From a virus: 21,205 nucleotides of DNA. The position numbers and the translations under genes were made by a program. Location: positions 1 to 21,205 of IMG/VR virus record IMGVR_UViG_3300030333_006065; one strand, given 5' to 3'. Within the stretch, counting starts at the first letter, position 1. Each line of letters opens with the position of its first letter. The notes beneath the pieces are model-generated. The model was not told the DNA's origin and made no database searches. It saw nothing but the letters and a program-made list of their open reading frames with translations. This document shows positions 13,550 through 15,482 of this stretch, one piece after another.

Positions 13550-15058
13550 TTATAGGGTAGTAGAAACGTCGTCAAACTCTAAACTTTCAGGGTTTTTAAA
13601 TTCACAGGTGCCACATTTTTCGGTTGCTTTTTTGGGATCTCCTTTGACGAAGACAAGTACATTTTGGTGGGTTTTGCCTAGCTTTCTTGATGTTTCAAAA
13701 GGCCGTCCGCATCTAATAGCAAGGGTGCCAATCGCTGTAATTAAAATTGCTTCATTGTAATAATCAAGACCAGCTTCTATAAAAGCATTGATTGTATCGC
13801 CCACGAAATTACGATAAATGCCTTTTTTGTCACGCACTTCACCAACGACAAAGCAGGCAAAAGAATTGTCTTTTAAGAGGGTGCAGGCTTTAAAGATTAT
13901 TTCTTTATAAGCAGCGACAAAGTCTTCGTAAGAAAGGGTTGAAATGTCCCTTTCGTCATCGCTATAAACTTCGAGGTCAGCATAGGGAGGGCAACTAAAA
14001 ATCATGTCAGCATTAAAGCCGTCGCAAATTTGATGAATGTCTCTGCTGTCGCCTACATGCCAAGAAGGTTTGTTTTGGGTGCAAATGTTTTCCGCTTGTC
14101 TTTCATTTGCTTCTACTTGCTCTGGCCTTAAATCAACGCCTATATAATCCCGACCTGTTTTTGAAGCGACAATACCTCGAACAGAACCACCAGCAAAAGG
14201 ATCAATGATTGTGCCGCCAACTGGACTAAACCATGTATAAGCAAGCTCAGCGAGAACAGGGTCAAAGATTGAGGTGCCTGTTGCCACTTGTGAACCTTTA
14301 GCAAGAAATTCTTGAGCTATTTCTTCATCGGTCATTCCTTGGTCTTTTTTTGTGTAGTACTGAGGAACAGCCGAAACCATTGTTGATCCTATTGACTTGA
14401 TATTTGTATTTTCTAAGGTCTTTTTGAGAGTTCTTAAGGCTTCGTCAGGCTGAAGAATTGTGTCTGACATTTTCAAAAGATTACCTTCCCTACCAATATC
14501 GGACTGAATGCCTAAAGCAATCCAAGCTCTTTTTCTTTCTTGCCACCAACCTTCACGAGCATTAAGAACGGAAAAGGGAACGACGCCAAAAATATCAGAA
14601 AGTTTTCTAGGGTCGCCCTCCGGCCTGCCAGTAGAAAATTCTTCTTGATTGGAATCGCCTAAAAGCTCATTAAGTTCATCTTTTTCAAACCAAGGTGAAA
14701 TGTCCTGTTCATCTGAAAGCTGCTGGAGCATTTCTTTATCCCAATCGGACAGGTCGGAAGTTCTGTTATCAGCTAAAGCGAGCCCGACCTTGTCTTCTTC
14801 TGATAAATCAGTTCTTTTAACAGCAATAATTTCTTGACCGTCAGTTTCTATAACCCGAACATTCTTAATCCCTGCCGACTTAGCACCTTCAACGGTTCCA
14901 TTGCCTGCAAGGATTCTGTTGTCTTCATCTATGACAATGGAGCGTGCTGCACCAAAGCGTTCTAGAGATTCTTTAATTAAGGAAGTTGATCTGTCGGTTC
15001 TTTTTCTTGCGTTTTTATGATCAGATTTAAGAGCTTTGATTGATGTTTGGTCTGCCAT
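13550..15058 (-). CDS. ParB-like domain fused to an N6-adenine or N4-cytosine DNA methyltransferase
   Basis: 502 aa, start ATG 15058. Residues about 1-125 form a ParB/Srx-like domain (RILAGNGTVEGAKSAGIKNV, then ALADNRTSDLSDWDKEML). The catalytic part has motif I DPFAGGSVRG (286-295), an acidic strand DYIGVDLRPEQ (304-314) and motif IV SCPPY (355-359), which marks an amino-methyltransferase. The order I then IV is that of the alpha/gamma groups. ParB-methyltransferase fusions are common in phages and protect DNA against host restriction. No cognate endonuclease is visible. A C-terminal CGTCEF pair of cysteines might bind metal. The gene heads the packaging operon. Confidence 0.87.
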   Translation of the reverse strand: MADQTSIKALKSDHKNARKRTDRSTSLIKESLERFGAARSIVIDEDNRILAGNGTVEGAKSAGIKNVRVIETDGQEIIAVKRTDLSEEDKVGLALADNRTSDLSDWDKEMLQQLSDEQDISPWFEKDELNELLGDSNQEEFSTGRPEGDPRKLSDIFGVVPFSVLNAREGWWQERKRAWIALGIQSDIGREGNLLKMSDTILQPDEALRTLKKTLENTNIKSIGSTMVSAVPQYYTKKDQGMTDEEIAQEFLAKGSQVATGTSIFDPVLAELAYTWFSPVGGTIIDPFAGGSVRGIVASKTGRDYIGVDLRPEQVEANERQAENICTQNKPSWHVGDSRDIHQICDGFNADMIFSCPPYADLEVYSDDERDISTLSYEDFVAAYKEIIFKACTLLKDNSFACFVVGEVRDKKGIYRNFVGDTINAFIEAGLDYYNEAILITAIGTLAIRCGRPFETSRKLGKTHQNVLVFVKGDPKKATEKCGTCEFKNPESLEFDDVSTTL

Positions 15059-15082: not shown

Positions 15083-15185
15083 GTTGAGGGGATGGATCGG
15101 GCACACCCCGCTTTGGCTTCCCGTCATGCTCAGCACGGTTATACCTTTCAGCCCACTTCGACAAAAGGCGTCAAGCTCCCTCAAC
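15083..15185 (-). ncRNA. Candidate structured RNA upstream of the methyltransferase
   Basis: A perfect 8-bp closing stem (GTTGAGGG on the minus strand at 15185-15178 against CCCTCAAC at 15090-15083) encloses 87 nt with three further possible hairpins. One is a GAC/GTC arm with loop GCCTTTT. A second is GGCT...AGCC with an inner CCG TGC TGA GCA TGA CGG arm. The third is CGGG-GTGTG-CCCG at 15110-15098. The stem ends about 24 nt before the methyltransferase ATG. I do not recognise it as a tRNA or a known riboswitch. Confidence 0.4.
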
Positions 15186-15194
15186 AATTCAAGG

Positions 15195-15458
15195 CTAGTA
15201 AGTTTCGCCTTGAATGTGTTCAGAACATGAGAATTTGAGATTATCTTTTTTAGCAAGGTCGATAAACTCTTGTTTTTCTTCTTCAGTATTTGCATATTCA
15301 TACCAATCTGAAGTTGAGATTAACCAATATTTTTTAGGGTTTTGTTCCCTTTCGAGCTCTTCTCTGTGAAGTTGGTCTTGCTCTTCTTCGTATTTAAGAA
15401 GTGCGGTTTCATGGAAATCAGACATTTTTTTATGGAGGTAAGTTTTAATAAGGGACAT
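15195..15458 (-). CDS. Hypothetical acidic helical protein
   Basis: 87 aa, start ATG 15458 with GGAGG about 8 nt upstream. That GGAGG belongs to the descending arm of the terminator next to it. An alternative ATG at 15425 (MSDFHETALL) has no Shine-Dalgarno. The protein is Glu-rich and helical (FHETALLKYEEEQDQLHREE) with a conserved-looking core PKKYWLISTSDWYEYANTEE. No domain, signal peptide or membrane segment is recognised. Its expression would rely on read-through of the terminator or on transcription from the cassette promoter upstream. Confidence 0.65.
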   Translation of the reverse strand: MSLIKTYLHKKMSDFHETALLKYEEEQDQLHREELEREQNPKKYWLISTSDWYEYANTEEEKQEFIDLAKKDNLKFSCSEHIQGETY

Positions 15459-15482
15459 AAAAAAAGCCTCCCGAAGGAGGCT
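15459..15482 (-). terminator. Strong rho-independent terminator (TTCG loop)
   Basis: On the minus strand, GCCTCC-TTCG-GGAGGC (15481-15466, extended by a T-A pair) is followed by seven Ts (15465-15459). The stem is perfect with a UUCG tetraloop. It ends the 51-aa cassette whose stop is at 15490. The next start ATG (15458) follows the last T directly. Confidence 0.92.

Follow-up and report, generated by a model that had tools for sequence, protein, structure and literature searches.

Synechococcus and Prochlorococcus, which rank with Earth's most abundant photosynthetic cells, carry small RNAs of the Yfr type (Yfr1, Yfr2 and others), some of them in multiple copies per genome. Among phage RNAs, some ribozymes sit between cistrons. 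The manA (RF01745), wcaG (RF01761) and PhotoRC-II (RF01717) RNAs are found in marine cyanophages (Weinberg et al. 2010, PMC2864571). The manA RNA is reported mostly from the 5'UTRs of metabolic genes, wcaG from the vicinity of exopolysaccharide or high-light genes, and PhotoRC-II together with psbA (PMC2864571).

The element described here is 103 bases long and intergenic in a marine cyanobacterial virus (IMG/VR record IMGVR_UViG_3300030333_006065). The window is the whole stretch analysed, 21,205 nucleotides. A sequence-only reading had proposed a multibranched RNA at this position, acting either as a riboswitch or attenuator for the downstream methyltransferase or as a free RNA. Comparison across its relatives shows an RNA that is widespread and independent of the DNA-methyltransferase gene beside it, for which it is no dedicated switch.

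Location and gene surroundings

The phage in the window is cyanosiphovirus-like, and its terminase shares 74-77% identity with the terminases of KBS-S-2A, MED4-117, MED4-184 and S-H1. The gap that holds the element measures 136-137 nt up to the upstream stop codon (TAG at 15195-15197), and 24 nt separate the end of the element from the methyltransferase ATG. Both distances agree with those of the sequence-only reading (137 and 24 nt), as does the higher GC content of the element (57%, compared with 34-38% in the flanks and 41% in the window). Its statement that the element has no long frame of its own does not hold, because open reading frames of 75 codons (minus strand) and 63 codons (plus strand) cross it. 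Both look like chance frames.

The 87-aa reading frame upstream gave no match in Pfam and PHROG searches. The methyltransferase gene downstream is counted as a neighbour of the element and not as its target. An intrinsic terminator is located at 15465-15482 on the minus strand, just ahead of the 87-aa gene. Transcription of the element and the methyltransferase gene therefore needs either a promoter downstream of this terminator or read-through. No promoter was recognised in the window between the terminator and the element or methyltransferase gene. The terminator scan found this one only and none between the element and the methyltransferase gene, and no Shine-Dalgarno switch is seen between the element and the start codon.

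Table 1. Coordinates of the element, its helices and the adjoining genes in the window
Feature	Position	Strand	Support
Whole structured RNA element, picocyanobacterial/cyanophage family	15083..15185	-	Independent model R3; kept in twins L001 and L002
P1 5' strand GUUGAGGG, closing helix	15178..15185	-	Compensatory changes UA/CG and GC/AU across family
P6 5' strand CUU	15173..15175	-	Pairing with AAG; double change from C-G to U-A, window-type versus other members
P2 5' strand GCCU	15166..15169	-	Double changes at all five P2 pairs in family
P2 3' strand GGGC	15151..15154	-	Family covariation
P5 5' strand GGU	15143..15145	-	Middle pair, GC/CG/UA double changes; third pair, U.G/C.A alternation
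P3 5' strand CCGU (CCGUC in twins)	15135..15138	-	Twin and family alignments
P3 3' strand ACGG	15121..15124	-	Twin and family alignments
P5 3' strand GCC	15115..15117	-	Family covariation
P6 3' strand AAG	15111..15113	-	Family alignment
P4 5' strand CGGG	15107..15110	-	100% paired in 39 sequences; both-side changes at all four pairs
P4 3' strand CCCG	15098..15101	-	Family covariation
Near-invariant junction AUCCAUC, between P4 and P1	15091..15097	-	Kept in alignments A3, A4 and A5
P1 3' strand CCCUCAAC, perfect complement of GUUGAGGG	15083..15090	-	Compensatory changes in family
87-aa ORF, upstream	15195..15458	-	Typical layout, with 9 nt from the end of the stop codon to P1
ParB-N6/N4 methyltransferase gene, 502 aa, downstream	13550..15058	-	Pfam PF01555; phrog_498 and ParB phrogs

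Secondary structure

Comparative analysis has shown the element to be a conserved, fully nested six-helix RNA on the minus strand, with the arrangement P1(P6(P2,P5(P3)),P4). This is congruent with the multibranched fold proposed from the single sequence. The closing helix P1 is the perfect 8-bp helix of that proposal, and its three internal hairpins are P2, P3 and P4; two more short helices, P5 and P6, lay beyond its view. The variation in the 35-sequence alignment is explained by these six nested helices. The third pair of P5 alternates between U.G and C.A, which are two near-isosteric wobbles. Some phage members lack P3, which is therefore optional. The junctions GCCUGA, UGAAAG, AUACAACA and GAUCYAUC are near-invariant in the family.

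Earlier versions of the fold were corrected. The comparative data give GCC/GGC as P2 and CUU/AAG as P6, in place of an early P2 stem CUUGAC/GUCGAAG, and they show no pseudoknot between a loop and GAAAGG. A four-pair P6 was trimmed to three pairs because C93-G133 (A3 columns) covaries as part of P4.

Statistical evidence

Folded singly, the window element is not significantly stable (z -1.27; 22 of 200 shuffles are as good), and with its flanks included the z-score is -0.31. The minimum-energy fold of the window sequence differs from the fold supported by covariation. One sequence is thus no more stable than chance, and the case for an RNA cannot rest on energy.

The comparative evidence is of a different kind. 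Model R3, built without the window and its twins, finds the window element with 61.4 bits (E 5.4e-11; E-values come from a shortened calibration). In a 39-sequence alignment that likewise excludes the window and its twins, 95.8% of pair cells are standard. Compensatory changes, on which the RNA reading depended, were sought among the relatives and are present: 17 of 26 pairs are changed on both sides, and 0 of 500 shuffles are as good. When the partners are slid by 1-3 bases, the covariation score of this alignment falls from 0.378 to 0.09 or less. When the 4560 column pairs of 83 sequences are ranked, every one of the top 12 belongs to a helix, and the 13th extends P4. On this comparative footing, independent homology and strong covariation together prove that the element stands above chance. 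Leaving consensus wobbles aside, the 83 sequences contain 97 G-U pairs and 15 A-C mismatches. Each G-U pair would be a mismatch on the other strand, so this excess identifies the molecule as RNA and its strand as the one co-directional with the methyltransferase gene.

Relatives and distribution

Two near twins of the window element (L001 and L002) were found with exact sequence pieces. A weak collinear match leads to a diverged element in five marine phage loci (L009, L012-L014 and L020), in which P1 is GUCGGGG/CCCCGAC and not GUUGAGGG/CCCUCAAC. A gapped pattern of conserved pieces (GAGCNTGA, GCTGARAG and GATCYATCCC) matches 109 stretches in viral contigs and 8 credible stretches in Synechococcus or Prochlorococcus genomes. 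Two pattern matches (L184 and L185) have no covariance-model score, look like chance and were rejected.

The family is shared by phages of the cyanosiphovirus type and by marine Synechococcus and Prochlorococcus genomes, and its phage members include about 110 contigs of uncultured phages. Two isolated Prochlorococcus phages, MED4-184 and MED4-117, carry diverged members according to covariance searches, which found no element in KBS-S-2A and S-H1. Nucleotide searches of isolated phages with the window copy or a typical member missed the family; the covariance model alone found MED4-184 and MED4-117. Each of the 13 phage records with a match, several of them 37-45 kb long, contains exactly one copy.

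Among 300 genomes drawn from the family of Synechococcus UW140 (Synechococcus/Prochlorococcus), 48 contain matches, and a single genome has as many as 13 copies. Sampling 388 genomes across the class added none to those already found, and a search of plasmids with the UW140 host copy gave no match. Four identical copies in UW140 (L192, L197, L200 and L203) all lie within about 220 bases of contig ends, which suggests repeated genes that broke the assembly.

Genomic layout in phages and hosts

Of 110 phage loci, 90 have a co-directional stop codon 4-22 nt ahead of P1, in most cases at a distance of 5-7 nt. The genes upstream of phage copies belong to different families, and those downstream vary as well (among them ParB, methyltransferase and replication genes and a 175-aa family of unknown function). 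In MED4-184, the element (record positions 13798-13915) directly follows CPAG_00029 and shares bases with the end of a convergent RusA gene. The short distance between stop codon and P1 may only reflect compact genomes; host distances are looser. Stimulation of stop-codon readthrough or frameshifting, considered because of the 4-7 nt spacing, was rejected, since the frame after the stop codon is neither conserved nor open across members and host spacing is looser.

A different layout is seen in the 12 loci of the L083 group, in which a terminator is followed by a -10 box, and transcription would be expected to begin at the first base of P1. The -10 boxes are TATTAT, TATAAT or TACAAT, and one member is less clear. 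The terminator and -10 box of L083, L094, L099, L131, L137, L143 and others were also noted about 60 nt before the element, and the L083-group transcript would run antisense into a RusA-type resolvase gene. A few copies follow a terminator without an evident promoter.

Host copies lie in 3'UTRs, 30 of 43 at 26 nt or less after the stop codon. A strict terminator is found 9-23 nt after P1 in 12 of the 43, and terminator-like sequence is visible by eye in more. This placement between stop codon and terminator, which is that of 3'UTR-derived small RNAs, fits many host copies but not the mid-operon or promoter-driven phage copies. By sequence inspection, the genes upstream of host copies include small signal-peptide proteins and RTX-type proteins. 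Host copies are clustered in some regions. A mobile gene cassette was rejected as an explanation, as one copy per phage record means that arrays are not general.

Two other features recur near host copies. Runs of short genes starting with MSEEQLKAFLEKVKADTSLQEK occur among the element copies (L241, 2349-3921; L243, 6439-10438; L238, 4619-4879) and resemble prochlorosin (Nif11-leader) precursors. Many host genes with the 3' element also have a 5' leader that contains GATGGTGAAGAGGTCCAGGAGGGATGACCTCC and lies about 20-120 nt ahead of the start codon (L206, L208, L231, L233, L234, L235, L204, L198 and L242). This leader has no Rfam match; it may be another regulatory RNA or belong to a unit of leader, gene and element.

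Discussion

The transcript position of the element is not conserved (first, middle or last) and its neighbours are interchangeable, which excludes a switch specific to the methyltransferase and makes a unitary RNA, acting either once released or as a recognised transcript module, the simplest reading. Of the two options in the sequence-only reading, the free RNA is the one that finds support. We lean towards a self-contained and probably trans-acting RNA, most likely with a protein partner, that would be released from an intercistronic or 3'UTR region. It would be made within whichever transcript carries the element, where it lies between a stop codon and a terminator, or be transcribed from a promoter of its own, and would fold into a compact unit closed by P1. 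The four near-invariant junctions would then be presented to the partner in picocyanobacteria, and the element would act as a small RNA after its release; the copy in the phage would make use of this host partner too. The conservation of these junctions suggests a specific partner. The single copy per phage record, compared with up to 13 per host genome, was counted for a self-contained RNA unit. It is counted against this reading that position-independent cis roles, such as mRNA stability or antitermination, predict the same layouts. Trans action is favoured over cis protection, self-cleavage and action on polymerase, although the sequence does not decide among them. A new functional RNA class is a tentative proposal: a ribozyme or the RNA core of a ribonucleoprotein that would be a multi-copy 3'UTR module of picocyanobacteria, captured by phages to use or counter host machinery.

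There is a modest chance that the element acts in cis, with a fold that shields or labels the end of the mRNA, or keeps adjoining cistrons apart, in the manner of a 3'UTR stability or decay-blocking structure. The host copies between stop codon and terminator and the phage copies between cistrons, at minimal distance from a stop codon, are congruent with this role. Promoter-driven copies begin a transcript, however, some copies directly follow a terminator, and simple barriers need no near-invariant junction sequences. A new ribozyme or RNA-processing site, with a cut near P1 that splits polycistronic phage mRNAs or trims 3'UTRs, is improbable. Its compact multi-junction fold with invariant unpaired bases and its placement between cistrons, which may be likened to that of some phage ribozymes, would fit, but no Rfam ribozyme family is matched and the bases flanking P1 are not conserved. 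It is more doubtful still that the RNA acts on polymerase in processive antitermination, as the put sites of phage HK022 do. Some copies do stand at the start of a phage transcript right after a promoter, or behind a terminator, but host copies immediately precede ordinary-looking gene-end terminators.

A riboswitch or attenuator for the ParB-methyltransferase, suggested by the 24-nt distance to its start codon in the window and two twins, is very unlikely. Most members adjoin other, unrelated genes, host copies lie in 3'UTRs, and close methyltransferase relatives (L007, L008, L010, L011 and L016-L019) have no element within the examined loci. The missing terminator and Shine-Dalgarno switch also count against it, and a GC hairpin with a U run is not found at the element. 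Least credible is a site acting in DNA, either an attC-like recombination site or an origin hairpin. The terminal inverted repeat, the location at the 3' ends of varied genes and the clustering in some host regions would agree with such a site. The G-U pairs kept on one strand, the multi-branch covariation, the promoter aligned to P1 and the single copy per phage do not, and the ends GTTGAGG...CCTCAAC stand in the opposite order to the attC core RYYYAAC...GTTRRRY.

That Rfam lacks an element found in many phages, and in as many as 13 copies in a host genome, points to a layer of host-phage biology that is based on RNA and has gone unrecognised. Carriers are available as isolates (MED4-184 or MED4-117 with the host Prochlorococcus MED4, and Synechococcus UW140), so this is testable now.

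Comparison with known RNA families

The Rfam search proposed in the sequence-only reading finds no Rfam 15 family at the gathering score in the whole window, typical members or host members. Relaxed searches give weak unrelated matches only, and among the known self-cleaving classes no Rfam ribozyme is matched. No description of the family was found in the open-access literature. The comparison of motifs covered those with an Rfam entry, which leaves aside Ocean-VI, for example, and also the IMES RNAs. Within this scope the RNA family is new, with no described relative in Rfam 15 or the open-access literature, and its function may be of a known kind.

The family resembles the Yfr RNAs in being a small cyanobacterial RNA, some of which have several copies per genome. 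Unlike them, it is also phage-borne, and it has no match to the cyanobacterial families with an Rfam model (Cyano-1 and Cyano-2), which are those that the sequence comparison covered. With manA, wcaG and PhotoRC-II it shares the character of a structured RNA common to marine cyanobacterial phages and environmental sequences (PMC2864571). It differs from these three in its usual location, behind stop codons and within the 3'UTRs of hosts, and it has no Rfam match. The L17 downstream element (RF01708; PMC2864571) is likewise a structured bacterial 3'UTR RNA whose strand is told by G-U pairs, and its Rfam model gives no match here either. That element is restricted to the ribosomal protein L17 gene in Lactobacillales and Listeria (PMC2864571), whereas the present family occurs with many unrelated genes.
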